Assembly: GCF_003605405.2 (NCBI RefSeq)
Contig: NZ_QYTW02000025.1
Location: forward strand, 1 to 64,000
Length of the DNA: 64,000 nucleotides
Source of the DNA: Siminovitchia terrae
GTDB lineage: Bacteria; Bacillota; Bacilli; Bacillales; Bacillaceae_C
Reading direction: 5' to 3'
A program made the translations under genes and the position numbers. The notes under the pieces were generated by a model that was given only the letters and a program-made list of their open reading frames with translations, had not been told where the DNA came from and ran no database searches. Position 1 is the first letter of the stretch, and the number at the start of each line of letters is the position of its first letter. This document shows, piece by piece, positions 21,350-51,934 of this stretch.

Positions 21350-21544
21350 TCAAATGCGCCTTGGCGTATTTGCGCCCAGATTTTATCGAGCTTAAGCTCG
21401 ATAAATTTCCTCTGAAAATCTGTGGCATCCGCCGGAGGCTTTAACTTTTTTCAGCCGGGGTTTGAACCCCCACTGAATGGAATACCAATATGCTTTCTTC
21501 TCACCACATACAGAAGTGGGAGACTTCTGCTGAATAAAGTTAAA
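21350..21544 (-). repeat. 195-bp structured dispersed element, copy A
   Basis: A full-length copy between the OsmC gene and yfkH. The minus strand is taken as the RNA-like strand: it starts TTTAACTTTATTCAGCAG, contains a CAGAAGT/ACTTCTG hairpin, a GGGGTTCAAACCCC hairpin, GCGGATGCC, and an ATCGAGC/GCTCGAT stem, and ends GCGCATTTGA. The stem loop differs from other copies (CTTAAG core) while the stem is kept. Confidence 0.9.
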
Positions 21545-21545
21545 C

Positions 21546-22406
21546 TTATCCATCATATTTTCCCTGCTTATTCGTAAAGTAAGAATTTATCTCACCTCCG
21601 ACCATAATAATAATGGCCGAGAAATAAAACCACAGCATCATGATGATAATCGTTCCAATACTGCCGTACATTGCGGTATAATTGCCAAAGTTTGATACGT
21701 AAAAGGAGAATCCGAGTGAAACGATAATCCATCCAACACTGGCAAAAATAGCGCCCGGCACTGCGGTTGCATACCGTACCTTTATGCTGGGTGCTAAATA
21801 ATAAACAGTGAGAAAAACCAAGAATAAAATAAACGGTGTCAGCACCCATCTAACAACGTTCCAATTTTTCAAAAATTGATCCGAAAGACCCAGATAAGAG
21901 AAAATAAACATTCCAAGCTGCTTTCCAAATACTGGCAATAGCAAGGCAAGGATAAAAACGAACATCATCGCTACTGTCAATACAATGGATAAGCCTCTGC
22001 TTACTATGAAAGATCGCTTTTCCTCCACATTATAGGCTCTGTTCAAGGATTTCATCAGAGCATTCATTCCTTTTGAAGCTGACCAAAGAGTAGCTATGAA
22101 GCCAACAGATAACAGACCGCTACTGCGATTATCCATGACCTCAGAAACGGTCTTTTCGATCATCGTATAGGTTTCTTGCGGCGCAAAATCTCTAATCAGG
22201 TGAAATATATCCTGCTGGGTTAGTGGAGTATAGGGCAGAAGTGTGAACAAGAAAATCAGCATCGGAAAAAGCGACAAAAGAAAAAAATAAGATAATTGTG
22301 CGGCAAAGCCCGTCACATCATTATCACTGATTCTTCTAGCCATCTCTTTTCCAAAATCTATTATATTATTTCTTTTTTTTCGATCATCTGGCTTCCTCAT
22401 TCCCAA
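21546..22406 (-). CDS. yfkH: YihY/BrkB-family membrane protein YfkH
   Basis: A protein of about 286 residues with six hydrophobic helices, characteristic of the YihY/virulence factor BrkB family (often mislabelled ribonuclease BN). Family features are D-V-T-G-F-A-A-Q-L-S-Y-F near the N-terminus and the final G-G-E-I-N-S-Y. A TTG at 22406 lies 6 nt after GAGGGGTG; ATG 22400 is an alternative, while the upstream ATG at 22430 precedes the ribosome site. The gene is bracketed by copies A and B of the 195-bp element. The transported substrate is unknown. Confidence 0.85.
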   Translation of the reverse strand: MGMRKPDDRKKRNNIIDFGKEMARRISDNDVTGFAAQLSYFFLLSLFPMLIFLFTLLPYTPLTQQDIFHLIRDFAPQETYTMIEKTVSEVMDNRSSGLLSVGFIATLWSASKGMNALMKSLNRAYNVEEKRSFIVSRGLSIVLTVAMMFVFILALLLPVFGKQLGMFIFSYLGLSDQFLKNWNVVRWVLTPFILFLVFLTVYYLAPSIKVRYATAVPGAIFASVGWIIVSLGFSFYVSNFGNYTAMYGSIGTIIIMMLWFYFSAIIIMVGGEINSYFTNKQGKYDG

Positions 22407-22447
22407 TAGAAACACCCCTCGTCTCTTCATACTTTATCTGTTATTAT

Positions 22448-22642
22448 TCAGATGCGCCTTGGCGTATTTGCGCCCAAATTTTATCGAGCTCCGCTCGATA
22501 AATTTCCTCTAAAAATCTGTGGCATCCGCCGGAGGCTTTAACTTTATTCAGCCGGGGTTTGAACCCCCACTGAATGGAATACCAATAGACATTCATCTCA
22601 CCACTTACAGAAGGTGGGAGACTTCTGCAGAATGAAGTTAAA
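22448..22642 (-). repeat. 195-bp structured dispersed element, copy B
   Basis: A full-length copy upstream of yfkH, same orientation as the others, starting TTTAACTTCATTCTGCAG on the minus strand. Two small differences in the hairpin near the 5' end (an extra G in the loop, a C-to-G change) set it apart from copies A and H. Confidence 0.9.
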
Positions 22643-22772
22643 TAATTACCTTCCCTTATCTTAGCAAAACATCATTCAAAATGAATAATTCAGCTTGACA
22701 ATCTTACTATTTTTTCAGAAGATTGATATATAGAAATTATCCTACTATAAAAAATAAATAGGAGGGGAGAAA

Positions 22773-24134
22773 ATGTCTGATAAGATTTTGAAATTTCTCG
22801 AAAATGTAAGCGGTTTAATATGGGGGTTGCCACTCATCATCCTTCTCATTGGAACAGGGATTTATTTAACAATAAGAGTTGGCTTCCTCCAAATGAGGCT
22901 GTTGCCCTATTCTCTGAAATTGGCATTCAGCTTTAAACAGGACAAAAATTCCGAAGGGGACATCTCGCACTTCCAGGCTCTTATGACTGCGCTCGCAGCA
23001 ACTGTCGGTACTGGTAATATTGTCGGCGTTGCTACGGCTGTTGTTTTAGGGGGACCTGGAGCCGTGTTCTGGATGTGGATATCCGCATTCTTTGGAATGG
23101 CTACAAAATATGCCGAAGCTGTACTTGCGGTCAAGTATAGGATTGTGGATGAAAACGGGCAAATGTCCGGAGGCCCCATGTATTATCTGGAACGCGGACT
23201 CAAGCAGAAGTGGCTTGGCATCTTGTTTGCGATTTTTGGAGCCTTAGCAGCATTCGGTATCGGGAATCTCGTCCAATCGAATGCAGTTTCCACTGTTGTA
23301 AAAACCACCTTCAATATTAACGAATGGGTTACTGGTCTAGCCTTGGTCATCTTTGCCGGTCTTTCAATCATCGGTGGAATTAAGAGTATCGGAAGAGTTA
23401 CTGCATTTTTTGTTCCTTTTATGGCTGTATTTTATATCATCGGTGGACTAATTGTTTTAATCATGAATATTAATCTGATTCCAGGAGCAGTAGCACTCAT
23501 TTTTACAGATGCTTTTACAGGTAAGGCCGTTGCTGGTGGCGCCATCGGTGCTGTCATTCGTTACGGAGTTGCAAGGGGAATCTTCTCGAACGAAGCAGGT
23601 CTGGGGTCTGCTCCAATCGCCGCAGCAGCTGCAAAAACAGATTTGCCTGGCAGACAGGCTCTCGTTTCTATGACGCAAGTATTCATTGATACTTTGGTTA
23701 TCTGTTCCATTACTGGTATCACAATCGTCATGGGAGGGCTTTATAATGAAGGGATAGCTGCTGGTGATTTAACCTCTGCATCTTTCGCCCAATTTTTGGG
23801 GAATACAGGCTCAATCATTGTTGCTCTTGGTCTATTATTCTTTGCTTCTTCTACGATTTTGGGATGGTCCTATTATGGAGAAAAATGTTTCGCCTATCTA
23901 TTCAGCGTAAAAAGCGTCATATTTTACCGCATTGTTTTCGTTGCTATGGTATTTGTCGGTGCGGTTACAAGTTTGGACATTGTTTGGGCCTTTGCGGATA
24001 TCGCAAATGGTCTCATGGCCATTCCGAACTTGATCGGATTATTGGGGCTATCCGGTGTGGTTGTTTATGAAACGAAAAGAACGCTGGATAAAATTAAAGA
24101 GGAAAAAGTTGAAGCAAGAAAAGAAACGGCATAA
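22773..24134 (+). CDS. Sodium:alanine/glycine symporter (AGCS family)
   Basis: A 453-residue membrane protein with about 11 helices of the AGCS (AlsT/GlnT/DagA) family, which imports alanine, glycine or glutamine with sodium. The family motif around residues 75-100 (A-T-V-G-T-G-N-I-V-G-V-A) and G-G-P-G-A-V-F-W-M-W are present, as are N-E-A-G-L-G-S-A-P and G-W-S-Y-Y-G-E-K-C. AGGAGGGG precedes the ATG. It forms its own transcript with a terminator. The exact substrate cannot be told. Confidence 0.92.
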   Translation: MSDKILKFLENVSGLIWGLPLIILLIGTGIYLTIRVGFLQMRLLPYSLKLAFSFKQDKNSEGDISHFQALMTALAATVGTGNIVGVATAVVLGGPGAVFWMWISAFFGMATKYAEAVLAVKYRIVDENGQMSGGPMYYLERGLKQKWLGILFAIFGALAAFGIGNLVQSNAVSTVVKTTFNINEWVTGLALVIFAGLSIIGGIKSIGRVTAFFVPFMAVFYIIGGLIVLIMNINLIPGAVALIFTDAFTGKAVAGGAIGAVIRYGVARGIFSNEAGLGSAPIAAAAAKTDLPGRQALVSMTQVFIDTLVICSITGITIVMGGLYNEGIAAGDLTSASFAQFLGNTGSIIVALGLLFFASSTILGWSYYGEKCFAYLFSVKSVIFYRIVFVAMVFVGAVTSLDIVWAFADIANGLMAIPNLIGLLGLSGVVVYETKRTLDKIKEEKVEARKETA

Positions 24135-24143
24135 AGTTTCCCG

Positions 24144-24170
24144 CCTTCCCGATATCGGGAAGGCTTTTTC
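24144..24170 (+). terminator. Terminator of the AGCS symporter gene
   Basis: The perfect palindromic stem GCCTTCCCGA/TCGGGAAGGC is followed by TTTTT. Confidence 0.85.
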
Positions 24171-24238
24171 ATATTGACAACCAATCCCATGCATGAAATC
24201 ATTATATTCATAAATATAGCCCCGAGAGGATGAACCTG

Positions 24239-24463
24239 GTGGATTTATCAAAAAACACACCCGCAAATATTGAGTATTTAATTGGTCAAATAACAGAGAA
24301 ATTGCGTATGGTTAATACTGCTGCAATGAAACCGGAAAGCATCAACAATGAAAGGTATGAGGAATTAGTTGAAATCTACGAAATGGTGATGAAAAAAAAA
24401 CATTTCAGCCCGGGTGAGATGCAAGCCTTAGTGGAAGAAATAGGCAGGCTGAGAAAGGTTTGA
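24239..24463 (+). CDS. yfkK: YfkK family protein (DUF1128)
   Basis: A 74-residue helical protein with N-I-E-Y-L-I near the start and F-S-P-G-E-M-Q-A-L-V-E-E-I-G near the end, the DUF1128/YfkK pattern. GTG at 24239 is about 9 nt after AGAGG; the ATG at 24230 overlaps the ribosome site, so the GTG is preferred. The function is unknown. It is followed by its own terminator. Confidence 0.82.
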   Translation: MDLSKNTPANIEYLIGQITEKLRMVNTAAMKPESINNERYEELVEIYEMVMKKKHFSPGEMQALVEEIGRLRKV

Positions 24464-24481
24464 GTGAGTAGGGTCACAGTG

Positions 24482-24508
24482 GAGAGCCTAAAAGGGGCTC
24501 TCTTTTTC
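24482..24508 (+). terminator. Terminator of yfkK
   Basis: The stem GAGAGCC/GGCTCTC is followed by TTTTTCT. Confidence 0.8.
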
Positions 24509-24599
24509 TACCTGTGCTTTACATGTGTTGTCTGAAAGGATAACATTTTGATTAATAGATTGTTGCCTATGAAAATATTCTTAAAGAAGGGTGATATTG

Positions 24600-25772
24600 T
24601 TGAAATCGTTCGAACAGTCCCGGCTGCTGAAAAGTCTGCCAAAACAATTTTTCGCTTCACTTGTTCAAAAAGTGAACAGCGTGAGGGCCGAGGGCCATGA
24701 TGTAATTAACCTAGGTCAGGGAAACCCCGACCACCCCACACCACAACATATTGTGGAAAGCCTCAAGCTTGCCGCCGATCACCCTGAAAATCATAAATAT
24801 CCTCCGTTTCAAGGAAAAATAGAGTTAAAACGAGCGGCTGCTAACTTTTACCTAAGAGAATACGGAGTCCATCTCGATCCTGAGAATGAGATTGCCATTC
24901 TATTTGGTGGAAAAGCGGGCCTTGTAGAGCTACCGCAATGCCTTTTGAATCCCGGCGATACAATGCTGGTTCCCGATCCAGGGTATCCGGATTATTGGTC
25001 AGGTGCAGCTTTGGCAAAAGTGCATATGGAAATGATGCCGCTGACAGAAGAAAATGATTTCCTTCCTTCTTTTGACAACATTCCAAAAGAAACGGCAAAT
25101 AAAGCCAAAATGATGATCCTGAATTATCCAAACAATCCAACAGGGGCTGTCGCTACCGAAGAATTTTTCCAACAAACAGTCAAGTATGCTTCAGCCCATG
25201 ATATTTGTGTCGTTCATGACTTTGCTTATGGTGGAATCGGATTTGATGGAAAAAAGCCTGTTAGCTTCCTGCAAGTAAAAGGTGCTAAAGAAACAGGGGT
25301 TGAAATTTACACATTCTCCAAAACATATAATATGGCCGGATGGCGGGTTGCGTTTGCCGCAGGAAATGCGTCAGTGATTGAAGCGATCAATTTGATGCAG
25401 GACCATATGTATGTCAGTCTGTTCGGTGCCGTCCAAGACGCTGCTGCTGAAGCTCTGTTGGGTTCTCAAAAGGCTGCTGAAACAATCAATGCCATGTATG
25501 AAAAAAGAAGAGATGTATTTATTTCAAGCCTCCGAGAAATTGGCTGGGATGTAAGGTCACCACAGGGTTCTTTTTTTGCCTGGCTGAAGGTTCCCAAAGG
25601 ATATACTTCTGAAGAATTCACTGACTTACTGTTGGAAAAAGCTTATGTTGCCGTTGCTCCCGGAATCGGATTTGGCGAGTATGGAGAGGGCTATGTAAGA
25701 GTCGGATTACTGACATCGGAAGAGCGCCTTAGAGAAGCCGCTTTGAGAATAAAGGAATTAGATATCTTTTAA
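24600..25772 (+). CDS. mtnE: PLP-dependent aminotransferase, MtnE type
   Basis: A 390-residue fold-type I aminotransferase. Motifs are G-Q-G-N-P-D near residue 42, N-Y-P-N-N-P-T-G (about 175), D-F-A-Y and the PLP lysine in S-K-T-Y-N-M-A-G-W-R. Its sequence resembles B. subtilis MtnE (YkrV), which transaminates 2-oxo-4-methylthiobutyrate to methionine in methionine salvage. A TTG at 24600 lies 5 nt after AAGGGTGA. No other salvage genes and no S-box riboswitch are nearby. In B. subtilis mtnE and motBA are also close together. The specific substrate is inferred. Confidence 0.8.
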   Translation: MKSFEQSRLLKSLPKQFFASLVQKVNSVRAEGHDVINLGQGNPDHPTPQHIVESLKLAADHPENHKYPPFQGKIELKRAAANFYLREYGVHLDPENEIAILFGGKAGLVELPQCLLNPGDTMLVPDPGYPDYWSGAALAKVHMEMMPLTEENDFLPSFDNIPKETANKAKMMILNYPNNPTGAVATEEFFQQTVKYASAHDICVVHDFAYGGIGFDGKKPVSFLQVKGAKETGVEIYTFSKTYNMAGWRVAFAAGNASVIEAINLMQDHMYVSLFGAVQDAAAEALLGSQKAAETINAMYEKRRDVFISSLREIGWDVRSPQGSFFAWLKVPKGYTSEEFTDLLLEKAYVAVAPGIGFGEYGEGYVRVGLLTSEERLREAALRIKELDIF

Positions 25773-25777
25773 GTTTA

Positions 25778-25958
25778 TCAAATGCGCCTTGGCGTATTTA
25801 CGCCCAGATTTTATCGAGCTCCGCTCGATAAAATCTGTGGCAGCCGTCGGAGGCTTTAACTTTATTCAGCCGGGGTTTGAACCCCGCTGAATTGAATACC
25901 AACATGCATCCATCTTACCACTTACAGAAGTAGGAGACTTCTGCTGAATGAAGTTAAA
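25778..25958 (-). repeat. 195-bp structured dispersed element, copy C (internal deletion)
   Basis: Starts 6 bp after the mtnE stop codon. It lacks about 12 bp between the ATCGAGC stem and the AAATCTG arm, which shortens an internal loop but leaves both stems intact. The GGGG/CCCC hairpin has a compensating C-G closing pair in place of the mismatches of other copies. Confidence 0.9.
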
Positions 25959-25996
25959 CGATGGTCTTCCGTTCGCGGACGGCCATTGTTTATTTT
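25959..25996 (+). terminator. Terminator downstream of mtnE and repeat C
   Basis: The hairpin ATGGTC-TTCCG-TTCG-CGGAC-GGCCAT is followed by TGTTTATTTTT on the plus strand. Confidence 0.65.
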
Positions 25997-26040
25997 TAAG
26001 CTTTTTATTTCCCAAGAAATAGTTCTCAACTCCATCCATC

Positions 26041-26077
26041 AAAAAAAAGCACACAGCTTGTATATAGCTGCATGCTT
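26041..26077 (-). terminator. Terminator of motAB
   Basis: On the minus strand AGCA..CAGCT / AGCTG..TGCT forms an interrupted stem followed by eight T, directly after the motB stop codon. Confidence 0.8.
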
Positions 26078-26844
26078 CATTTCTCTTCATCGGGTATATA
26101 AGGCTCAATCAGCACTTCCACCCGCCTGTTAGCTTCTCGACCTTTAGCTGTTTTATTATCTGCGATAGGCTGAAATTCGCCAAAACCTTTTGCACTAAAT
26201 AAACGCGGATCCAATTTTTCGTCTTCAAGGAGCACTTTCATAAAATTGACTGCCCTCATGACACTCAATTCCCAGTTAGACTGGAATTCCGAATTTTTGA
26301 TTGGGACATTATCAGTATGCCCGCTGATAATCACACTTCTCGGTAGCTCCATTTCTAACAATGCTGCAAGTTCCTTCGCAGTTTTTTTGTCGTTTTTTCT
26401 TACCTCGGCGCTCCCGGATTGAAACAGCACGCTGTCGTTGATTGTGATCAGCAATCCTTCGGAGGTCAATGAGGTAGAAAACTTGTCTTCATACTTTTTT
26501 TCCTGGATGTAATTATCAACCTTTTTCTTAAGCGCTTCAAGAATTTTCAAATCTGCTAATTCATCTGTGAACTGCTCCTTCGGATCATTTTGAGAATCAT
26601 CCTCTGTTTCATCTATTTGCTCTTCAATTTCCAACGGTTTTTCGAACTCAACCGGTCCATCTCCCCCGACAAAAATCCCACTAAACACTTTGGAAATTTG
26701 TTGGAATTTCTGCGCATCCACAGAACTTGCCGCGAACAGTACGATGAAAAGTGCAAGAAGCAATGTCATCAAATCCGCATATGGAAGAAGCCAGGATTCT
26801 CCCAGCTCCTCCTCATGCCGTTTTTTCCGTTTACGCTTGGGCAT
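26077..26844 (-). CDS. motB: Flagellar motor stator protein MotB
   Basis: A 255-residue stator subunit. A basic N-terminus is followed by the single transmembrane helix with the proton-binding Asp in W-L-L-P-Y-A-D-L-M-T-L-L, then a linker and a C-terminal OmpA-like peptidoglycan-binding domain with I-S-G-H-T-D-N-V-P-I and R-R-V-E-V-L-I. The ATG at 26844 overlaps the end of motA by 14 bp, so translation is coupled. Y-A-D-L-M-T is of the proton-type MotB rather than sodium-type MotS, judged from memory of B. subtilis MotB. Confidence 0.92.
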   Translation of the reverse strand: MPKRKRKKRHEEELGESWLLPYADLMTLLLALFIVLFAASSVDAQKFQQISKVFSGIFVGGDGPVEFEKPLEIEEQIDETEDDSQNDPKEQFTDELADLKILEALKKKVDNYIQEKKYEDKFSTSLTSEGLLITINDSVLFQSGSAEVRKNDKKTAKELAALLEMELPRSVIISGHTDNVPIKNSEFQSNWELSVMRAVNFMKVLLEDEKLDPRLFSAKGFGEFQPIADNKTAKGREANRRVEVLIEPYIPDEEK

Positions 26845-27631
26845 TTGTCGCCACTTCTCTTTCATCTTGCAATTCTTTACGTTGTTCTTTCGGAAGATAA
26901 GAAGCTAACTTCTGCTCTATCATTCTCGGAGCCTCTCCTTCAAGGATAGATAAAATTCCTTCCACCATCAATTCTTTCAATCTTACTTCCTCATGAGATT
27001 TTCGTTTTAATTTATTAGCAAATGGATGCCATAACACATAGCCTGAAAAGATTCCAAAAAGCGTCGCAACAAAAGCAGCAGAAATAGCTAATCCAAGCTC
27101 ATCTGTATTATCCATGTTCCCCAAAGCAGCAATCAGTCCGATTACAGCTCCAAGAACTCCCAATGTAGGTGCGTATGTACCTGCTTGTGTAAAAATCTGC
27201 GCTCCAACAGCATGCCGTTCTTCCATTGCATCAATTTCGTCGTTAAGAACCTCGCGTATGTAGTCAGCACTTTGCCCGTCAACCGCCATCAAAAGGCCCT
27301 GCTTTAAAAACGGTTCGTCGATTTTTTCCATTTCCGCTTCAAGGGCAAGCAAACCTTCCCTTCTTGCCAACTGCGCCATTTCTGAAAAAAGGATAATTAA
27401 TTCCTTTGGTGTAGGCATCTTCTTCTCTTTGAAAATGATGCCAAAAAGTTTGGGAACCTTCTTAATTTCGGAGGATGGGAATGCGATAGTCACACTAGCT
27501 GCCGTTCCCACAAAAATCACCAACATCGCCGCTGGGTTCAGCAATGCTGTTATATCTACTCCTTTTAAAACCATACCTACCCCCACGGCAATGACACCGA
27601 GAACTACCCCAATCAATGATGTTTTATCCAT
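26831..27631 (-). CDS. motA: Flagellar motor stator protein MotA
   Basis: A 266-residue stator subunit with four transmembrane helices: two near the N-terminus and two in the region from T-Y-A-P-T-L-G-V-L-G-A-V-I-G-L to the F-A-N-K-L-K loop. The cytoplasmic loop between helices 2 and 3 carries the charged residues that contact the rotor (A-R-R-E-G-L-L-A-L-E). AGGGTGA is 5-6 nt before the ATG at 27631. It forms the stator complex with MotB, encoded next. Confidence 0.93.
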   Translation of the reverse strand: MDKTSLIGVVLGVIAVGVGMVLKGVDITALLNPAAMLVIFVGTAASVTIAFPSSEIKKVPKLFGIIFKEKKMPTPKELIILFSEMAQLARREGLLALEAEMEKIDEPFLKQGLLMAVDGQSADYIREVLNDEIDAMEERHAVGAQIFTQAGTYAPTLGVLGAVIGLIAALGNMDNTDELGLAISAAFVATLFGIFSGYVLWHPFANKLKRKSHEEVRLKELMVEGILSILEGEAPRMIEQKLASYLPKEQRKELQDEREVATNAQA

Positions 27632-27764
27632 TTGCTTCACCCTATACTAATAGTAGTCTTATCTCTAATATCGGCAGAAGCAATTAAGTTTTAAGTATCT
27701 TCATGTTGTTTTCTTTTTTTAAGAAGCGTGGAAAAATATACTGCCCTTTATCTCTCATAAATTG

Positions 27765-28142: not shown

Positions 28143-28248
28143 TATAATCCCTCCCCGATTTTCATCCAATCTGTGTCCTTATATTTTATCATGCTTAAAT
28201 TTTTTATACGTAAAAACCGTTATAATATCTAAAAAAACGTTGATATAA

Positions 28249-28444
28249 TCAAATGCTCCTTGGCGTATTTGCGCCCAGATTTTATCGAGCGGAGCTCGAT
28301 AAATTTCCTCTGAAAATCTGTGGCATCCGCCGGAGGCTTTAACTTTATTCGGCCGGGGTTTGCCCCCCCCCGCTGAATTGAATACCAACTTGCATTCATC
28401 TCACCCCTTACAGAAGTAGGGGAATTCTGCTGAATGAAGTTAAC
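28249..28444 (-). repeat. 195-bp structured dispersed element, copy D
   Basis: A full-length copy with several substitutions. The hairpin loop between the ATCGAGC and GCTCGAT arms is GGA on the plus strand, where other copies have TCC, so the stem-loop is inverted while its stem is preserved. The GGGG hairpin is degraded (GCCCCCCCCC). Confidence 0.88.
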
Positions 28445-28834
28445 GCTTACAATCTTTTTTGCGATATCAAATATAAAAAAGCACGTACTTGGGGCTACTT
28501 TTGGGGGGCACCACAAAACCCGGCTTTTTTTATTTCCTAATAGCTCCTAATTTTGCGAAAGGCTATTCTCCAAACTTAATACTGGAGTTGGAATCGAAAT
28601 CTATTCTATGCGCTTGGAGACTATAATCCATTAAATGGACCAACTTATTCGTTTGATTTACATAATGAGCAGCACCTTTAATCTCTTAAAGAAATCCATC
28701 AATCCAAATGGTAAAAATTAATAATTGGTTAAACTCCATTGCAATATGTTTAGTCTCATTGATCTGCTCCCATTCCTGTTCGTTTCATATTGTGGAGGAA
28801 GCAGATTTAGGTTCCAAGAAAAATAATAAGCAAT
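28445..28834. other. AT-rich interval without a recognised gene
   Basis: No supported open frame, tRNA or known RNA motif. A C/G-rich patch at 28492-28530 is followed by a T-run but does not form a clean hairpin. Confidence 0.4.
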
Positions 28835-31228: not shown

Positions 31229-31539
31229 AAGTAATTCCTAATTGAACGAACGGGGGCTTTACTTTAATAACGATCTTCAACGATCAAGCGCGATTGTGGT
31301 TAAATACTTTTTCGTCACTTTACGAAATCCATGAGGGAATATTTTTTACAGATGATTCCCAAGCAGTCATGAGTAAGATCTCTGATATATGTATGCCAAG
31401 AAAAACAAAGCCCAAAAAAGGTGCCCGTCCGTAATTGGATAGGTCTCTCTCTTAGGCAATCGATGCCAGAATACGTTAATATTTTATTTAATCACCAAGT
31501 CAGTCCCCAGCCCAACATAAATATTCTTTTACTACTACA
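31229..31539. other. Interval without a recognised gene after paiB
   Basis: Contains only short fragments of open frame (for example around 31260-31430) interrupted by stops, suggesting decayed coding sequence that I cannot identify. Repeat copy E follows. Confidence 0.35.
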
Positions 31540-31636
31540 TCAAATGTGCCTTGGCGTATTTGCGCCCAGATTTTATTGAGCTCCGCTCGATAAATTTCCT
31601 CTGAAAATCTGTGGCATCCGCCGGAGGCTTTAGCTT
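31540..31636 (-). repeat. 195-bp structured dispersed element, copy E (truncated)
   Basis: Only the half containing GCGGATGCC, the ATTGAGC/GCTCGAT stem and the GCACATTTGA end is present. Sequence identity stops near 31636, so the TTTAAC end and both other hairpins are missing. Confidence 0.88.
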
Positions 31637-31673
31637 TTTTAAGCTTAAGCTCATTTAGAACCGGACCCTAAAA

Positions 31674-39524: not shown

Positions 39525-39835
39525 TGTCTAGCTCCGATGTACAGGACGTACAAGTGCAAGCTAAGCGGCAGGACGTCGCGATTTCAGCCTGCATTCTTCG
39601 CCGTGTTGTCTGGCTGTGAGTGCCATCGGCTCGAGGTCATAAGCCAATCGCTGAAGAAGGCAAACTACGCCTTCTTCAGCACTCGTCTTATGCTTGGTCG
39701 CCGATAAGCGGGCACTCTCGCACTTCGTTTTCCTTTATCTCAATTGAAGGATCGTCGACCAAAATCGCCACTTCCTGTGGCAACGTCGACGCACCAACAT
39801 CCTGTTGGCGCAGTTTGTACGTTGCTAAACGGGCC
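39525..39835 (-). repeat. Dispersed intergenic repeat family, copy 2 (reversed)
   Basis: On the minus strand this contains CGCTTATCGG, AAGCATAAGACGAGTGCTG, CAGCGATTGGCTTA, CGAGCCGATGG and CGCGACGTCCTGCCGCTTAG, the same order of blocks as at 6.9 and 48.3 kb, but with only one 58-bp-type unit. Confidence 0.7.
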
Positions 39836-42054: not shown

Positions 42055-42189
42055 TATTTTTGTAAAAAATTATGCTGAAACATCTTCTGAAATTGACTGT
42101 TTGATCACTTTTCTTCTCCCTATTTTTACAAGAAGAAAAACGAGAGGCGTGTCCAAAATAGCTACGATGAACTTAAAGGAATACTGAGA

Positions 42190-42381
42190 TCAAATGCGCC
42201 TCGGCGTATTTGTGCCCAGATTTTATCGAACTTCGCTCAATAAATTTCCTCTGAAAATCTGTGGCATCCACCGGAGTTTTTAACTTAATTCAGCCAGGGT
42301 TTGAACCCCCACTGAATGGAATGCCAATATTCATTCATCTCACCACTTACACATGGGAGACTTCTGCTGAATGAAGTTAAA
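42190..42381 (-). repeat. 195-bp structured dispersed element, copy F
   Basis: A diverged copy upstream of the yuaF-floT operon and downstream of queF. The ATCGAGC stem carries two changes that are C-A mismatches on the plus strand but G-U wobble pairs on the minus strand. The CAGAAGT hairpin has lost 3 bp. Confidence 0.88.
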
Positions 42382-44430: not shown

Positions 44431-44473
44431 ATCCCGGACAGCTTTGCTGTCCGGGATCGTTCCTTTTATTTTG
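44425..44473 (+). terminator. Strong terminator after the 20-bp array
   Basis: An 18-bp perfect stem (44425-44442 with 44446-44463) with a TTT loop is followed by TTTTATTTT on the plus strand. It overlaps the 3' end of the convergent dehydrogenase gene. Confidence 0.92.
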
Positions 44474-45662
44474 TAGTCGCCCGCCTTCTGGAAAAATGAT
44501 AATCATAGCAGGTCAAATAAAGGTCTTTGAGTTCCCGCAGAGTCGGTACTTTTGGATTATTGGCGGGGCTGCCGCTTTCAATAGCATCCCTTGCCATTTT
44601 TTCCACTGACAAGGTGAATTCTTTTTCATCAAGCCCCCAACCTTTCAGATTAGGAATCTCTAAGTCAGTGCAAAGCTCCTTTACGGAGTCTACCGCAATG
44701 TTCGCGGCCTCCTCGTTTGTTACATTCCGATCAGGCATAAAAATTCTTCCCAAATCTGCCAGCCTTTCTACACATGAATCCTTGCTAAATTCCAGTATTG
44801 CCGGTAGAAGCATAGCATTGGAAAACCCATGCGGAACATGGAACAACGCTCCGATTGGCCTTGACATCCCATGAACAAGACAAACAGAAGCATTGGAAAA
44901 AGCCATACCAGCTTGTAAAGATCCCAGTGCCATTTTCTCTCTTGCCTCCATGTTGCTCCCGTCTTTATAAGCATCCCGGATATGATTGGCAATCAGTTTC
45001 ATGGCGGAGAGGGCAAGCATGTCTGTCATCGGGTGAGATTTTTTTGATAAAAATGCCTCAATCGCATGGCTTAATGCGTCTATCCCAGTCGCCGCCGTCA
45101 CATGCTTCGGTGAAGATTTACTCAGTTCGGGATCAACGATAGCGGCATTCGGCATAAAGGCTTTCTGCTTTATCATCATTTTAACTTGGCTGGAGGTATT
45201 TGTTATCACCGTTACATCAGTTGCTTCGGAACCTGTTCCGGCTGTTGTCGGGATGGCGATATGCGGAAGCGGGGGCTGTTTAGCCTCTCTTTTCCCCCCC
45301 ACAAATTCGTCAATATTTCCTCCATTCGATGCAAGAACGGAAACAGCTTTTGCCGTGTCGATACAGCTTCCTCCACCCAAAGAAATAATCAAGTCACAGC
45401 CGTTTTCTGTAACCATTTTTAAAGCTTCTAACACGTACTGATCAGTCGGCTCCGTTTCAACTCCAAGGTAAACAGCGCTTTTCACCTGGCAATCATCCAA
45501 AAAGCCCATGCACTGATTCACATTCCCCAATTTCTCCATCACTTTGTCAGAGATGATCAAGGCATTCTTTCCCCTTTGAGCGGCTTTGTCTCCAACCTTT
45601 TTAAAAGAATCAGGTCCATATGTAATCGACGGCGGTGTTCTTAACTCTGCAAATTTGTTCAT
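44466..45662 (-). CDS. Iron-containing alcohol dehydrogenase (group III)
   Basis: A 398-residue NAD(P)-dependent group III dehydrogenase. The N-terminal domain has the nucleotide motif G-G-G-S-C-I-D-T-A-K (about residue 95), and the C-terminal domain carries metal ligands in D-A-L-S-H-A-I-E-A-F, H-G-M-S and H-G-F-S-N. Substrates are primary alcohols or diols, not further resolved. AAGGAGAGG precedes the ATG at 45662. A sigma-54 promoter lies about 40 bp upstream. It is transcribed in the same direction as the broken sigma-54 activator just upstream and divergently from the second dehydrogenase. Confidence 0.9.
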   Translation of the reverse strand: MNKFAELRTPPSITYGPDSFKKVGDKAAQRGKNALIISDKVMEKLGNVNQCMGFLDDCQVKSAVYLGVETEPTDQYVLEALKMVTENGCDLIISLGGGSCIDTAKAVSVLASNGGNIDEFVGGKREAKQPPLPHIAIPTTAGTGSEATDVTVITNTSSQVKMMIKQKAFMPNAAIVDPELSKSSPKHVTAATGIDALSHAIEAFLSKKSHPMTDMLALSAMKLIANHIRDAYKDGSNMEAREKMALGSLQAGMAFSNASVCLVHGMSRPIGALFHVPHGFSNAMLLPAILEFSKDSCVERLADLGRIFMPDRNVTNEEAANIAVDSVKELCTDLEIPNLKGWGLDEKEFTLSVEKMARDAIESGSPANNPKVPTLRELKDLYLTCYDYHFSRRRATTK

Positions 45663-45692
45663 TATTTTTCCTCTCCTTTTTAACCATATAAA

Positions 45693-45710
45693 TTGCAAGA
45701 ACTATACCAA
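45693..45710 (-). promoter_or_regulatory. Sigma-54 promoter of the leftward alcohol dehydrogenase gene
   Basis: On the minus strand TTGGTATAGTTCTTGCAA has GG at -24 and GC at -12 with the required 10 bp between them. The GTTCTTGCAAT part is identical to the other sigma-54 promoter at 47.0 kb. Confidence 0.85.
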
Positions 45711-45720
45711 CACCTTACCC

Positions 45721-46856
45721 TCAATAAATGTCATACTTTTTTATTTTTTGATAGAGAGTCGTACGATGAATCCCCAACATTTCAGCTGCTTTTGTTTTAT
45801 TGCCTCCTGTATGAGTAAGCGCTTTTATGATTGATTCTTTTTCCATCTGTTCTCCCATACTTTTTGCCTTTTCGAGCAAGGACACATTTTTTACATCGGT
45901 CACTTCTTCCGCTTGCTCCCATTGCATTTCTTTGATTGAGTGCAGCAAGTGAACCAGATGAATCTCCTGGCTGTCGACTAGCGTTACTATTTGTTCTATC
46001 GTATTAATCAGTTCCCTTATATTCCCTTTCCATGGATAACTCATTAGGGCCGATACTGCGTCAGGATTGAACGACTTCATCGGCATATGATACTTATTAC
46101 ACACTTCTTTTAAATAGTAGGATAATAGTATAGGTATATCCTGCCTTCCCCTTCCCAAATTGGAATTCGATGGACGACCATATCTTGTCCTTGTATATTT
46201 TGTATCACACCGCGTTCTGGAATAGCCGTTTTGACAGTAACGTGAAGGTTCGTATTATCAATTACTTCAGTTACATGGCGGCCAATTGCCTCTTCTCGCG
46301 AAATACCCGTGAATCTGCTGTATGCCTCATTGAATTCAATAAGGATTCCAAATTCATCCACAACAGCGATCCCCTCATAAGCGCTTTCGAGTACACTACT
46401 TAAAATTTCAATGGCATTTCTCTTTTTTTGAACAATGGACATGGACTTTGTATAGAAATTCATCATTTCTTTCGGCGTTATGATCCCCAAAATTTTATTA
46501 GACTGATCAACTACTGGTAAACATTCCGCCTGCATTTTCACAATATCTGTCATCTGATCTGTTGGCCTGACAGAGTCATAAAGATAAACTGGTATATCTT
46601 CTATAAGGGATGAACCTGTTGAATCCTTTAAAAGATTTGACAATATCGTACGGAAACTCAACAATCCAACAAGCTGATCGTTTTCATCCACAACCGGCAT
46701 AACATCCAGCTCTGTTTGCTCCATGATTTTTGCGGCTTCCCATACGGTCTGAGTCGAACAGATACATAATGGTGCAGTGTTCATCCATCTCTCCACTTGA
46801 AAAAAATCGTTAGATGATATTTTTTCCTTTCGAATTGTCATTTCACTGTAGACCAT
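45721..46856 (-). pseudogene. Sigma-54-dependent activator lacking its ATPase core
   Basis: The first frame (to about 46110) encodes two CBS domains (about residues 20-150) and a PAS domain ending H-R-I-P-I-W-E-G-E-G. The second frame encodes the end of the AAA+ domain (G-R-G-R-Q-D-I-P-I-L-L-S and Y-P-W-K-G-N-I-R-E-L) and a Fis-type helix-turn-helix (G-I-H-R-T-T-L-Y-Q-K-I-K-K-Y). Walker A, Walker B and the GAFTGA loop are missing, so most of the ATPase domain was lost with a frameshift near 46.13 kb. It cannot activate sigma-54 RNA polymerase. It lies between two dehydrogenase genes with sigma-54 promoters. Confidence 0.88.
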
Positions 46857-46919
46857 TTCTACCCCCACAATGTTCATTTGTTGTATATATATCACTACAA
46901 TTTTTCTACATATCTGAAG

Positions 46920-46932
46920 TGTAGCGACTACA
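46920..46932. promoter_or_regulatory. Candidate activator site, inverted repeat TGTAG-N3-CTACA
   Basis: A perfect 5-bp inverted repeat about 90 bp upstream of the rightward sigma-54 promoter, with further CTACA motifs at 46895-46910. The position suits an upstream activator sequence. Confidence 0.45.
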
Positions 46933-47016
46933 AGTCGGATTTCCAAGAGACTTTAAGCTTAATTTGAAAACATGCACAAATTAGATTTTTCTTTCTCTTA
47001 TAACAGACTCATTTGT

Positions 47017-47034
47017 TTGGCTCGGTTCTTGCAA
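47017..47034 (+). promoter_or_regulatory. Sigma-54 promoter of the rightward alcohol dehydrogenase gene
   Basis: TTGGCTCGGTTCTTGCAA matches the TGGCAC-N5-TTGCA consensus with correct GG-GC spacing, 40 bp before the start codon. Confidence 0.9.
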
Positions 47035-47073
47035 TATAAATGATTAATCATTCCCATTAAAGGAGGAAATAGC

Positions 47074-48243
47074 ATGTTTGATTATTTTGTCCCGACTGTC
47101 AATTTTTTTGGAAGAGGATCTGTAAATGTAACAGGAGAACGCTGCGAAATTTTAGGTGGAAAAAAAGTTTTAATCGTAACTGATTCCTTTCTGAGAAACC
47201 TTCCTGATGGTCCGGTTGAAAAAGTAGTCAATTCTTTAAAAGAAAAAGGAATTGAAACCGTCTTTTATGACGGCGTTGAACCAAATCCAAAGGATACCAA
47301 TGTTTACGACGGACTAAAAATTTTTCAAGTTAAAAATTGCGATATGATCGTTACGGTTGGGGGCGGAAGCGCCCATGACTGCGGCAAAGGAATAGGCATT
47401 GCTGCAACACATAGCGGAGATTTATATGAAGACTATGCTGGGATAGAAAGGTTGTCCAATCCTCTCCCTCCACTTGTTTGCGTTAACACGACCGCGGGAA
47501 CAGCAAGTGAAGTCACACGGCATTGTGTCATCACCAACACAGACAAGAAAATCAAATATGTCATTGTCAGCTGGCGTAACACACCGCTTGTATCAATTAA
47601 TGATCCCGAGCTTATGGTTGGAAAGCCTCCAGCATTAACTGCTGCAACCGGGATGGATGCTTTGACACATGCCGTTGAGTCTTACCTCTCACTAGGAGCC
47701 AACCCTGTAACTGACGCAGCGGCAATCCAAGCCATTAAGCTGATTTCAGAAAACCTGCGGCAAGCAGTCGCATATGGACATAATATCGAAGCAAGAGAAA
47801 ATATGGCCTACGCATCTTTACTGGCCGGCATGGCTTTTAATAACGCAGGTCTCGGTTATGTACATGCCATGGCCCACCAGCTCGGAGGACTGTATGACAT
47901 GCCTCACGGAGTAGCAAATGCCATTTTGCTTCCGCATGTAGAAAGATTTAACATCATCTCTAATCCGCAGAAATTTGCAGATATAGCGAAGTTTATGGGT
48001 GAAAATATAGAAGGTTTATCGATTCGGGATGCTGCCGATAAAGCCATAGCTGCCATTGAAAAACTGTCACGTGACGTCAAAATCCCAACAAACTTGAAAG
48101 AGCTAGGCGTTAAAGAAGAGGACTTCGAATATATGGCAGAAATGGCACTTCAGGATGGGAATGCCATCAGCAACCCTATCCAAGGTAAAAAAGAGGACAT
48201 CATTGAAATTTTCCAAGCAGCTTTTGATTCCTCCTCAAACTAA
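47074..48243 (+). CDS. Iron-containing alcohol dehydrogenase (group III), second copy
   Basis: A 389-residue group III dehydrogenase with G-G-G-S-A-H-D-C-G-K (about residue 95) for NAD binding and metal ligands in D-A-L-T-H-A-V-E-S-Y, H-A-M-A-H-Q-L-G-G and H-G-V-A-N. It resembles NAD-dependent methanol/1,3-propanediol dehydrogenases (length and overall pattern), but the substrate is not certain. AAAGGAGG precedes the ATG. It is driven by a sigma-54 promoter. It shares under half of its sequence with the other copy, so it is not a recent duplicate. Confidence 0.9.
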   Translation: MFDYFVPTVNFFGRGSVNVTGERCEILGGKKVLIVTDSFLRNLPDGPVEKVVNSLKEKGIETVFYDGVEPNPKDTNVYDGLKIFQVKNCDMIVTVGGGSAHDCGKGIGIAATHSGDLYEDYAGIERLSNPLPPLVCVNTTAGTASEVTRHCVITNTDKKIKYVIVSWRNTPLVSINDPELMVGKPPALTAATGMDALTHAVESYLSLGANPVTDAAAIQAIKLISENLRQAVAYGHNIEARENMAYASLLAGMAFNNAGLGYVHAMAHQLGGLYDMPHGVANAILLPHVERFNIISNPQKFADIAKFMGENIEGLSIRDAADKAIAAIEKLSRDVKIPTNLKELGVKEEDFEYMAEMALQDGNAISNPIQGKKEDIIEIFQAAFDSSSN

Positions 48244-48245
48244 TA

Positions 48246-48720
48246 AGTGCCTGCTTATCGACGTACAGACTGTAGTGCTTCGAAAACAAAGTGCGGAGAG
48301 TGCCTGCTTATCGGGCGCAAAGCTAGACGAGTGCTGTTTGCCTTCAACAGCGCTTGGCTTAATCCTCACGCCGACGGACTCGGCCGCTTCAAGCCGCCAC
48401 GTCCTGTTGCTTCGCCGGCACTAGCACTTCCTGTGCGTCGGCTGGCTCAAACAGCGACGTCCTGTCGCTTCGCCGGCACTAGCACTTCCTGTGCGTCGGC
48501 TGGCTCAAACAGCGACGTCCTGTCGCTTCGCCGGCACTAGCACTTCCTGTGCGTCGGAGCCGATGTTGACTTACCGGAGGTAAGCAACTTACTGGATTAC
48601 TCGTGAGAAGCTTCTTTGAGTAAGCTTCGTGCAGCTTTGCGACGAGGTGAGGTTAACATCTTCGAATACGCTGCGCCGCAGGAGCACATTGTCGCGAAGT
48701 CCGCTAGTCGATAGGAGCTT
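48246..48720 (+). repeat. Dispersed intergenic repeat family, copy 3, with tandem 58-bp units
   Basis: Begins right after the dehydrogenase stop codon. Blocks TGCCTGCTTATCG, AAAGCTAGACGAGTGCTG and CGCTTGGCTTAATCCTC match the 6.9-kb copy. At 48441 and 48499 two identical 58-bp units start with GCTGGCTCAAACAGCGACGT, after a diverged first unit, ending near 48557. Confidence 0.85.
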
Positions 48721-49165
48721 TTGAGCTGGACAACGAAAAATGTTAAACATAAAAAAACTTACACTTTCTTATCTTATAGGGAAAAATGCAGAGGTTCTTC
48801 TATGACTTCTGCGTTTCCCTGTATCATAGCCGTACTTCTTGACGTACGTCAGCTACTTCCCTGCAAAAACAGACCAACCTGGAACGTCTTTCGCTTGCCC
48901 TTTCCCCATCGTTCTTACCCTCCACCAACAAAATCTACTTCAAAATACATAACATCATTCACCCCTTGAACTTTATTAAAGATCGGCCGACCCCTGTCAA
49001 TAACAGATTGAAAAAAGGATTGGACAATCATTCTGTTTAAAAAGACGATTTTATAAAACACATGAAGAGAGAAAATTCTATAAATAACCCAAACCAATTT
49101 TTATACTTTTAAAGAATAAGGATTTATATTATAATAAAATATGTGCTTTTTGCGATAAGTAATGT
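48721..49165. other. Interval before the tRNA gene, no recognised gene
   Basis: Contains an imperfect hairpin at 48778-48820 (AGGGAAA..GCAG / CTGC..TTTCCCT) but no supported coding frame. The 200 bp before the tRNA are very AT-rich. Confidence 0.4.
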
Positions 49166-49238
49166 GGCTCCGTAGCTCAGAGGATAGAGCGTCGGTTTCC
49201 TAAACCGTGCGTCACAGGTTCGATTCCTGTCGGGGCCG
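49166..49238 (+). tRNA. tRNA-Arg (anticodon CCU)
   Basis: A 73-nt cloverleaf: acceptor GGCTCCG/CGGGGCC (one G-U), D arm GCTC/GAGC, anticodon loop TTCCTAA with anticodon CCT, T arm with GTTCGATTC. No CCA is encoded. It reads AGG. Isolated tRNA genes of this kind are common integration sites, and accessory DNA follows. Confidence 0.95.
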
Positions 49239-49256
49239 TTCCTACAAAGTCAGTGA

Positions 49257-49296
49257 CAGCAAGGGTTTCAGCGTATTCGCTCCCTTGCTGTTTTTG
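49257..49296 (+). terminator. Terminator after tRNA-Arg
   Basis: The stem ACAGCAAGGG/CCCTTGCTGT is followed by TTTTTG, 18 bp after the tRNA 3' end. Confidence 0.85.
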
Positions 49297-49398
49297 TTTA
49301 AAATAGCAAAGTGGTCACGGATTTGGCACCTTAGGTGTCCTAAAGTGTAAACTAATATAAAAGAATAGGAACGTAAATTAACATTAAGGAGGGTTCTT

Positions 49399-50139
49399 AT
49401 GGTTGCTTCATCACAAAAAGATCAGCAAGGACTAATAGATGCAGGTAAAGTTATTTCTGAAATACGCGATGAAATGATTTCCAGTACAAAGCCGGGAGTC
49501 ACAACAAAGGAACTTGATGAAATTGCAGAACGGATGTTTAAGAAATACGGAGCGGAGTCAGCACCATTAAAAACATTTAATTTTCCAGGCTATACCTGTA
49601 TCTCTGTAAACGAAGAAGTGGCTCATGGGATCCCTGGCAAACGAGAAATCAAGGATGGCGACATTGTCAATATAGATGTATCTGGTTCCTATAAAGGCTA
49701 CTATGTAGATACTGGACGTTCCTTTCTTGTTGGTGAGGGGAGTTCCGAAATTTCGAAACTCTTAGATGTGACAGAACATGTATTTAATGAAGGATTAAAG
49801 CAGTTTAAGGCTGGAGCAAAAATGAATATGGTTGGTCGTTCGGTATATCGCACGGCAAAGCAGTTTGGATATAAAGTAATAAAAAACTTAACAGGTCATG
49901 GGGTAGGATCCTCACTTCGTGACGCTCCAGACCACATATTTAGCTATTATTTACCATGGGATAATGAATTATTTAAAAATGGAATGGTTATCGCTTACGA
50001 GCCTTTTGTATCTACAATAGATGAAGAAGTTTATGAAAAGGAAGATGGATGGACTTTAGTAACTAAAAAAGGTGGTTATGTTGCTCAAATAGAACATACC
50101 CTTATTATTACAAAAGATAGTCCTATCATCGTAACGTAA
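49399..50139 (+). CDS. Type I methionine aminopeptidase (second, non-ribosomal-operon copy)
   Basis: A 246-residue M24A metallopeptidase that removes N-terminal methionine from nascent proteins. Metal ligands appear in N-I-D-V-S-G and D-T-G-R-S-F (two Asp), T-G-H-G-V-G (His), the late E-P-F (Glu) and Q-I-E-H-T (Glu). AAGGAGGG precedes the ATG. B. subtilis has a second enzyme (YflG/MapB) besides the ribosomal-operon Map; this gene, alone after a tRNA, is likely that type. It has a distinctive short N-terminal extension. Confidence 0.9.
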   Translation: MVASSQKDQQGLIDAGKVISEIRDEMISSTKPGVTTKELDEIAERMFKKYGAESAPLKTFNFPGYTCISVNEEVAHGIPGKREIKDGDIVNIDVSGSYKGYYVDTGRSFLVGEGSSEISKLLDVTEHVFNEGLKQFKAGAKMNMVGRSVYRTAKQFGYKVIKNLTGHGVGSSLRDAPDHIFSYYLPWDNELFKNGMVIAYEPFVSTIDEEVYEKEDGWTLVTKKGGYVAQIEHTLIITKDSPIIVT

Positions 50140-50510
50140 TACTTTCTTTAGCCATGTATCTCAGCGGATGATTTTCATTCAACAAATGGCCTTTTGAGAT
50201 GAATTGAGTTTAACTACCTTTACGATCAATTTTGCGGAGTAGTTCTCCTACAAGCCATTTGAGTGTTATCAGCATCACCTCAAACCTGAAATGTAACGAC
50301 CTGTTAAAGCAATGCCTGCTCAAATGATTCCAACAGAAATTTGCATTCTTCTCCTCATACAAAACATTCTACACCCTGTCTTGAAGATCATGAATGCGTT
50401 TGGCGGTTACAGATTGCAAACAACACTTGATAGGGCTGCTATACATATAAGCTTATCTATAAGAGAATTCCCTCCGATCTACCTAGGGTATTTCTCTTTC
50501 AATCATCTAC
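50140..50510. other. Interval without a recognised gene
   Basis: No ribosome-site-supported frame. The plus-strand open frame near 50312-50671 runs antisense over the Arg-rich paralog and is not considered real. Confidence 0.4.
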
Positions 50511-50663
50511 CTACCATTCAAAGTCTTCACGTATACGCCTTTTTCGAATTCACGCTCACATTCTCTTTCGCGCTCACGTCTTTCTTCGCAACATTTACAA
50601 ATGAATCTCCTTCTTCGTCTTTCTCTTTCTCCACCGACAAAAATCATCTTCAAATAAAAACAT
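50511..50663 (-). pseudogene. Frameshifted paralog of the Arg/Glu-rich small protein
   Basis: In one frame it reads R-R-R-R-F-I-C-K-C-C-E-E-R-R-E-R-E-R-E, matching residues 10-28 of the 31.7-kb protein; in another it gives R-K-R-R-I-R-E-D-F-E-W and a stop, matching that protein's C-terminus. The ATG at 50663 is in a third frame relation, so at least two shifts have occurred. Upstream and downstream non-coding sequence is also similar to the 31.7-kb locus, so promoter, gene and terminator were duplicated together. Confidence 0.8.
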
Positions 50664-50807
50664 GCTATTAGCGTCCCTCTACCTCTATTAAGGCAGGCCT
50701 TGATATTAACATATTGAAAAAGTCGAATTTATTACAAAGACAGTCTGAGAAAATCAAACATTTCCAGTAACACTTTTTAGAAGCTGCCCTAGCAGCAAAC
50801 TTGTTCA

Positions 50808-51001
50808 TCAAATGCGCCTTGGCGTATTTGCGCCCAGATTTTATCGAGCTCCGCTCGATAAATTTCCTTTGAAAATCTTTGGCATCCGCCGGAGGCTTTA
50901 ACTTTATTCAAGCGGGGTTTGCCCCCCCACTGAATGGAATACCAATATGCATTCATCTCACCACTTACAGATGTGGGAGACTTCTGCTGAATGATGTTAA
51001 A
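50808..51001 (-). repeat. 195-bp structured dispersed element, copy G
   Basis: A near full-length copy, same orientation as the others. The GGGG hairpin is changed to GGGGTTTGCCCCCCC, and the terminal segment reads TTTAACATCATTCAGC. Confidence 0.9.
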
Positions 51002-51035
51002 ATTTTAATACATAAATATGATGGATGCTCAACGT

Positions 51036-51074
51036 GAAAACCCCCTTGGATCAAAAGAGATCCAAGGGGTTTCC
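51036..51074 (-). terminator. Terminator-like hairpin downstream of the 51.2-kb gene
   Basis: GAAACCCCTTGGATC and its complement form a long stem; on the minus strand it ends in a short T-run (GTTTTC). The nearest minus gene ends 147 bp upstream. Confidence 0.65.
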
Positions 51075-51220
51075 TATACCTTGCGGCAAATAGAAGGCTT
51101 TATCATTATTGACCTTGAAAGTTTATTTAATCTTTTTCCTAATTTGTAACATCCCTTCCTTTCCATCGAACTATTCGACAAAAAGAAGATTTTTCAGTCA
51201 TTATTGAAACAGCCCCCCAC

Positions 51221-51547
51221 TCAAGGTGATTTCAGCCGAATTTTTAATTGACTAATATGTACGTTTCTAATCATTATGAACTCCAAAAGCCTTTCATATC
51301 TATCAACCAACTCCGCTAAAGCCATGTAATTAACAGTTAGCGTTTCATTTCCATAGAACTCTATTCCTTCATCTTCAATAGTAAAATCTTCATTTCCTTC
51401 AATATCCCCATGATAATTCGACAATCTCTCATGTTCTTCTACAAGCTTGTTCAAGGCTTTATAATTAACCTTGACTACACCCCTATTATTCACTTCACTC
51501 ATATCTTTTTTAATAACCTGAAGAAAATTCATCTTATTTGTTGGCAA
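51221..51547 (-). CDS. Hypothetical protein with internal repeat
   Basis: A 108-residue acidic protein with two similar segments, V-N-Y-K-A-L-N-K-L-V-E-E-H-E-R-L (about 27-42) and V-N-Y-M-A-L-A-E-L-V-D-R-Y-E-R-L (about 72-87), suggesting an internal duplication of a strand-helix unit. The start is a TTG at 51547 with GGGGAG 5 nt upstream. I do not recognise the family. It lies between repeat copies G and H. Confidence 0.65.
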   Translation of the reverse strand: MPTNKMNFLQVIKKDMSEVNNRGVVKVNYKALNKLVEEHERLSNYHGDIEGNEDFTIEDEGIEFYGNETLTVNYMALAELVDRYERLLEFIMIRNVHISQLKIRLKSP

Positions 51548-51740
51548 TTTTGCTCCCCTAACTATATTTTATACCAAAAAGGACTATTTACCCACTGCAA
51601 TTTATCGCCTTTATTGAACAATAATTGACAGATTGGCAGAAATCATTTGAATTTTCTTAGTAGCTGAATTCCATTATGCAATAATCAGTTAGCCCTTTGT
51701 ACAGCTTGGCCTATCAGCGAGATCACTCCCGTACAGGAAA

Positions 51741-51934
51741 TCAAATGCGCCTTGGCGTATTTGCGCCCAGATTTTATCGAGCTCCGCTCGATAAATTTCC
51801 TCTGAAAATCTGTGGCATCTGCCGAAGGCTTTAACTTTATTCAGCCGGGGTTTGACCCCCCATTGAATGGAATACCAATATGCATTCATCTCACCACTTA
51901 CAGAAGTGGGAGACTTCTGCTGAATGAAGTTAAA
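51741..51934 (-). repeat. 195-bp structured dispersed element, copy H
   Basis: A full-length copy close to the consensus, with one change in the GCGGATGCC region (GGCAGATGCC) and a loosened GGGG hairpin (GGGGTTTGACCCCC). Confidence 0.9.

Follow-up and report, generated by a model that had tools for sequence, protein, structure and literature searches.

A gene-less hairpin element of Siminovitchia terrae and other Bacilli that probably moves as single-stranded DNA

The window analyzed here, 64,000 nucleotides of Siminovitchia terrae DNA (positions 1 to 64,000 of contig NZ_QYTW02000025.1, assembly GCF_003605405.2), contains eight copies of a gene-less element of about 190 nt with four hairpins. 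The element is probably a small selfish one whose movement, like that of IS200/IS605 insertion sequences and of the REP/RAYT system, proceeds through single-stranded DNA, with the help of an HUH-type enzyme acting in trans. All eight copies lie on the minus strand, and both their places and their internal pairings are as the first-pass annotation, made from the letters of the window, had described them.

The element is abundant in the source genome (5.30 Mb in 68 contigs, hereafter G000). With up to three mismatches allowed, a 46-base core has 431 matches there (248 forward, 183 reverse), compared with 0 for the reversed pattern used as a control, which excludes chance; 431 is a lower bound, since more diverged cores fall outside the count. 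Stretches of G000 amounting to 403 kb, in which the density of copies is biased upward because they were partly picked around copies, contain 65 full copies, 2 that lack the 5′ part and 1 truncated where a stretch ends, and the remaining 44 of the 112 hits are weak opposite-strand self-matches of the palindromic parts. Three of the copies in G000, although located at unrelated sites, share 100% identity, which indicates recent movement, with the reservation that G000 copies were taken around good matches, so that identity figures are biased upward.

Structure, ends and target of the element

The sense strand, read 5′ to 3′, opens with stem 1. Next comes a conserved AGCCTCCGGCGGATGCC region, which includes a GCC/GGC hairpin, then the long stem TGCC-n-CAGATTTT..AAATCT-GGGC, and finally the terminal hairpin CAAATACGCC-AA-GGCGNATTTG, with AT behind it at the boundary. 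The fold computed for one copy has an energy of -72.9 kcal/mol (z = -6.3), and none of 200 shuffled sequences folds equally well. Stem 1 varies widely in sequence, and its loop ranges from a few to more than 100 nt. The stem was found in 92 of 120 elements, as 79 distinct stems; of the 28 elements set aside, 15 had no anchor and 13 no stem at the threshold. Within an element, the two strands of stem 1 pair at 97% of positions, a value that is partly due to construction because the best-pairing stems were picked, so that the real tests are the shuffled control, with a stem in 2 of 115 cases, and the pairing between strands of different elements, at 49% of positions (maximum 56% in 200 shuffles). 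Stems also differ, yet stay paired, among the copies on a single chromosome of G476, which belongs to another family of the class. Of the 18 pairs in the 3′ core, 7 have changed at both positions. Both ends carry secondary structure, stem 1 on one side and the terminal hairpin on the other, and both structures covary. The ends are not inverted repeats of one another.

Empty sites were identified by syntenic comparison of G000, G001, G003 and G005, along with three Fredinandcohnia genomes; G001 (indicated as Bacillus sp. HF117_J1_D) and G005 (indicated as Siminovitchia fordii) belong to the genus of G000. Junctions were compared only for gaps shorter than 70 bases, which excluded larger gaps (for example, G000:C13 at 27.9, 38.5 and 42.1 kb), and a spurious cross-match was disregarded. 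Three of the 18 insertions with an empty counterpart were set aside, namely, window copies 1 and 6, which lie at rearranged sites, and the G003:C43 copy at 15.4 kb, in which the right end is damaged (its empty site also has TTTTAA). None of the 15 usable insertions requires a target duplication, with an ambiguity of 1-3 nt left in AT-rich sites. The insertion point lies directly 3′ of a TTTAA-like pentamer that is kept in the left flank, and the right end reads ...TTTGAT. In 11 of the 15 sites, the pentamer pre-exists in the empty allele at four or more of its five bases (TTTAA, GTTAA, TCTAA, TATAA, ATTAA, CATTA, TAAAA or TTTGA), as judged by eye in alignments that, running through matching bases, favour the finding of a pre-existing pentamer. 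A clear case is the insertion of G000:C13 at 92.8 kb, where the empty allele of G001 joins GTATTTAA to CAATAATAAGG and the filled allele has GTATTTAA, the element (CTTTATTC...TTTGAT) and AAATAAGATG. Another comes from the comparison of G003 with G000, with AACTTTAA next to TGCTTGG in the empty allele and CATTTTAA, the element (CTTC...GAT) and TGCTTGG in the filled one. These comparisons refine the ends given by the first-pass annotation: its left end included TTTAA, which mostly pre-exists in the target, whereas the element proper begins with C (TTCATTCAGC); its right end, TTTGA, was one base short of the boundary.

The 3′ strand of stem 1 terminates in the complement of the target pentamer. 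One element with TTATA in the stem sits at TATAA, which the empty allele also has, and this match fits a guide role for the strand.

IS608 is described as inserting 3′ of TTAC, which is kept in the left flank and recognized by base pairing (PMC5934647). The element resembles IS608 and ISDra2 in the insertion 3′ of a short left-flank target, the pairing with an internal strand, the hairpins at both ends and the preference for the lagging strand (PMC5934647, PMC6006769), as well as in the lack of a consistent duplication. Unlike these transposons, it contains neither tnpA nor tnpB and targets TTTAA, and no insertion sequence with matching ends was found here. Furthermore, unlike in natural IS608, the pairing strand directly prolongs the first stem on its 3′ side, which resembles the extended pairing produced in IS608 by engineering (PMC5934647).

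Strand bias and the mobilizing enzyme

The copies are strongly biased in orientation. On contigs with at least two known copies, 109 of the 113 copies lie on the majority strand of their contig, compared with a mean of 75.3 and a maximum of 89 in 20,000 shuffles. With the G-rich strand, as defined by GC skew, taken as the leading strand, the sense strand falls on it for 60 of 63 copies in G000 and for 151 of 165 copies over all collected loci, for which the gene calls come from a simple open-frame script. Two chromosomes that each consist of a single contig show agreement with the skew for 10 of 11 and for 9 of 11 copies; of the three copies that disagree, two match weakly (28.0 and 25.8 bits). 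The bias does not follow from gene direction because the neighbouring-gene classes of 152 copies (82 co-directional, and 32, 21 and 17 in the other classes; 13 copies inside called frames were excluded) follow the spacer background (507, 155, 152 and 103). The element shares with the BOX, RUP and SPRITE repeats of Streptococcus pneumoniae the features of parasitic, non-autonomous structured repeats, as these are described, with a variable middle in the case of BOX; unlike the element, at 92-95%, they are reported as 61-63% on the leading strand, mirroring the coding bias (PMC3049150).

The leading strand has the same sequence as the template of the lagging strand, into which IS608 and ISDra2 are known to insert (PMC6006769), and the bias points to movement through single-stranded DNA at the replication fork. 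Under such a mechanism, the sense strand would fold with hairpins at both ends, and the guide-like TTAAA in the 3′ strand of stem 1 would pair with TTTAA in the exposed lagging-strand template. The element would then be joined 3′ of the pentamer, with the other end cut after TTTGAT, and a circle junction, if formed, would be expected to join TTTGAT to CTTCATTC. The first-pass annotation had proposed a non-autonomous element of the IS200/IS605 kind. As a mechanism, this proposal is supported, given that no consistent duplication is seen, the left target is kept, hairpins occur at the ends and insertion is strand-specific; as membership of that family, it is unproven, and neither a cognate Y1 transposase nor an autonomous parent was found.

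The REP/REPIN sequences offer a second parallel, as hundreds of gene-less intergenic hairpin copies that are proposed to be moved in trans by an HUH-Y1 enzyme (PMC6006769). They differ from the element in size, at 20-40 bp (PMC3733652) compared with 190 nt and four hairpins. The RAYT of G000 is a protein of 188 amino acids (PF01797 at 1.1e-12). A cognate RAYT gene would be expected to have copies on its flanks, within about 1 kb. In G001 and G003, a single copy of the element lies to one side of the RAYT gene at a distance of about 0.8 kb, which is not rare by chance given about 10 copies per 100 kb; in G000, the nearest copy is about 3.3 kb away. Some copy-rich genomes (G161 and G281) have no RAYT, and RAYT was set aside as the cognate enzyme.

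Several observations weigh against movement of the element in the IS200/IS605 manner. The target pentamer is absent from the empty allele in 4 of the 15 sites. No match to the Y1 domain (PF01797) was detected in 4 of the 26 element-bearing genomes tested, namely, G161, G281, G563 and G592 (2 of 14 plus 2 of 12), and one of these, G161, has two copies at different sites with 99.5% identity. In G005 and G040, the Y1 matches are all fragmentary or broken, and in a set of 13 element-bearing genomes, Y1 is also missing from G023 and G030, which have few copies of poor quality. The domain is about equally common among relatives at large (52 of 60), and the RAYT family occurs in 20 of 25 genomes with the element and in 219 of 372 others (Fisher p = 0.055). 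Seven Y1 loci were inspected and the gene was located in four of these (G000, G132, G361 and G417); judged by eye, the surroundings do not resemble the ends of the element, and these loci were discarded as parents. No copy with genes between the same ends was found in the 3.14 Mb of collected, partly overlapping loci. The one candidate for an autonomous copy, L093, with its halves 2.3 kb apart, turned out to be an ordinary gene between two separate copies.

A Y1 enzyme that was supplied in trans and has since been lost from some hosts is the simplest account of these observations. A bolder one, which we consider possible but rather doubtful, is that single-stranded DNA at the fork is moved by an enzyme outside the Y1 family, such as another HUH protein or a single-strand recombinase. 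This would explain the rich genomes without Y1, including G161 with its nearly identical pair, and none of the Y1 or RAYT subfamilies seen was common to all rich genomes. However, the genomes in question are drafts, and the picture would be the same if a transposase lay in a gap or had gone with a lost plasmid; most of the rich genomes tested have Y1, and no candidate for the other enzyme was found. In its fullest form, to which we give the same low weight, this account would make the element a replication-coupled mobile element of single-stranded DNA with an extended, evolvable guide strand continuous with the first hairpin, in which targets (TTTAA, TTTAT, TATAA, CTAA) change together with compensatory changes in the stem.

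Alternatives to movement as single-stranded DNA

Endonuclease-less group II introns insert into the lagging-strand template, and the element could in principle be an RNA that inserts there by reverse splicing or target-primed reverse transcription. Its RNA-like conserved structure, the strand bias and the pairing of the 5′ flank with an internal strand, similar to IBS-EBS (intron- and exon-binding site) pairing, are all compatible with such a route. We nevertheless regard it as improbable: the copies are full length, with 65 full ones to two without the 5′ part in the 403 kb of G000 and no spread of 5′ truncations, and the element has no above-threshold match to an Rfam intron or ribozyme, although a reverse transcriptase was not sought.

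A selfish nature of the element is suggested by copies shared between genomes, which decay faster than their surroundings. In six pairs shared by G001 and G003, the identity is 91.8% in the 3′ core and 95.7% in the 5′ part, compared with 96.5-96.6% in the flanks; in four pairs shared by G000 and G003, the respective values are 82.7%, 88.4% and 91.6-92.9%. Hence, the conservation of the core across species more likely reflects selection for movement than use by the host.

The same decay argues against a host regulatory RNA in 5′ leaders, which we consider quite unlikely. This possibility is brought up by the proximity of a start codon with a ribosome site, found within 45 nt downstream of 62 of the 196 copies in collected loci (genes called as above), compared with 7 of 192 on the mirror side and 451 of 7481 intergenic positions drawn at random. 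The proximity is largely explained by short spacers: if copies were placed uniformly within their own spacers, 8.3 cases would be expected in G000, where 8 are observed, and 4.2 in G001/G003, where 4 are observed, while a moderate excess remains in a mixed set (37 observed and 26.1 expected, standard deviation 2.9, among the matches listed). The downstream genes, whose sequences were inspected, look unrelated to each other.

A conventional DDE-type miniature inverted-repeat transposable element with terminal inverted repeats, which the short, gene-less, high-copy sequence with many hairpins might bring to mind, is largely refuted by the empty sites and very unlikely, given that 15 comparisons revealed no consistent target duplication, that the ends are not inverted repeats of each other and that double-strand transposition is not expected to yield a replication-strand bias.

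The omega RNA of IscB, known as HEARO, is structured and linked to IS200/IS605-type mobility. The first-pass annotation suggested that the copies might be orphan guide-RNA scaffolds of IscB or TnpB, on account of that mobility and of a similarity of GCGGATGCCA to the OgeuIscB omega RNA. This reading, the least probable of all, is not supported by the HEARO model (RF02033), which has no match at E <= 10 in 1.6 kb with two copies or at E <= 1 in seven further element loci, whereas the same search in a sister genome scores 139.7 bits for the HEARO beside the iscB gene of G001. The RRXRR domain of IscB was found in 1 of 33 genomes (G001) and not in G000, which is among the 33 (TnpB was not searched), the GGCGGATGCC block is absent from the G001 HEARO locus, and the faster decay of shared copies also speaks against scaffolds. 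The full HEARO RNA of the G001 iscB locus occupies L055:1265-1472, and a second match, below the threshold (45.8 bits) and running off the end of the locus, is found at 3417-3516.

Distribution, copies in the window and implications

The spread of the element was measured with a covariance model of the 3′ core, which matches 25 of the 397 genomes from the order and 19 of the 398 from the class, G000 being within both sets. A pattern scan places it, among the matches listed, in Siminovitchia, Fredinandcohnia, Schinkia, Psychrobacillus, Ureibacillus, Sporosarcina, Lysinibacillus and Amphibacillus. Plasmids (72,556 records) and phages (50,697 records) gave no blastn match at E <= 1e-5, and viral contigs gave one match to the exact pattern. 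A further locus with the element, L149 (NZ_JADHDX010000003.1), is titled Arthrobacter beigongshangensis; this record may be mislabelled or mixed, considering that the element is one of Bacilli and that the GC content is 43% over 8 kb. The bcr1-bcr18 repeats of the Bacillus cereus group are likewise small, structured and intergenic, often in transcribed spacers (PMC3446304); bcr1 of B. anthracis is listed with 147-167 bp and 12-31 copies (PMC2267715). In a literature search of limited depth, we met no published description of the element.

Table 1 Copies of the element in the window, the parts of copy 8 and loci with a nested repeat (positions are those of the window unless a locus is named)
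Feature	Position	Strand	Remark
Full copy 1	21349..21544	-	element proper 21349-21539; target pentamer TTTAA 21540-21544
Full copy 2	22448..22642	-	same site filled in G001, empty in G003 and G005
Full copy 3, with internal deletion	25777..25958	-	site empty in G003 and G001
Full copy 4	28248..28443	-	
Copy 5, 3′ core intact, 5′ domain not recognizable	31539..31649	-	
Full copy 6	42189..42381	-	rearranged site relative to G003/G005
Full copy 7	50807..51001	-	
Full copy 8	51740..51934	-	
Copy 8, stem 1, 5′ strand	51919..51934	-	target TTTAA and first 11 nt of the element
Copy 8, stem 1, 3′ strand	51830..51845	-	guide-like TTAAA at 3′ end pairs with target
Copy 8, conserved 3′ core	51740..51829	-	GCC-hairpin, TGCC-n-CAGATTTT..AAATCTGGGC stem, terminal hairpin
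Copy 8, right terminal hairpin	51740..51763	-	CAAATACGCC-AA-GGCGCATTTG and AT; right boundary
Repeat of ~66 nt nested in the element	L329:10831-10995, L331:15648-15813, L332:3545-3707, L080, L121, L143		

Two of the copies in the window (Table 1) stand out for their sites. At copy 6, beside a queF-like gene, about 505 bp that are present in G003 and G005 are missing; in G003, TTTAA-like sites are found at both edges of this piece, the pattern expected from a deletion by recombination between two copies. The site of copy 2 is empty in G003 (G003:C43 compared with G001:C11) although G003 is about 98% identical to G001 there, which indicates either excision or recombination.

Other repeats were encountered in the course of this analysis. 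In several genomes, a second palindromic repeat of about 66 nt (GATCAAAGACTAAGAACGCCACATCCTGTGGC...) is inserted within the loops of the element, an apparent case of a mobile-looking hairpin nested inside a mobile hairpin. Another dispersed repeat, of about 110 nt (AGTGGCAGTAA units; L150:3490-3610), is present in several copies in three Fredinandcohnia genomes. The window also contains two Bacillaceae-1 RNAs (RF01690) at 39538-39603 and 39743-39808, on opposite strands and with about 140 bases between them.

The 431 counted copies would equal about 1.5% of the G000 genome, and with this element, which occurs in several Bacilli genera, the small group of apparent single-strand transposons gains a family. 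The copy-rich hosts without a Y1 match make the question of the mobilizing enzyme directly testable. In stem 1, a target-pairing strand would vary naturally and change along with its target; in IS608, such an arrangement came from engineering.

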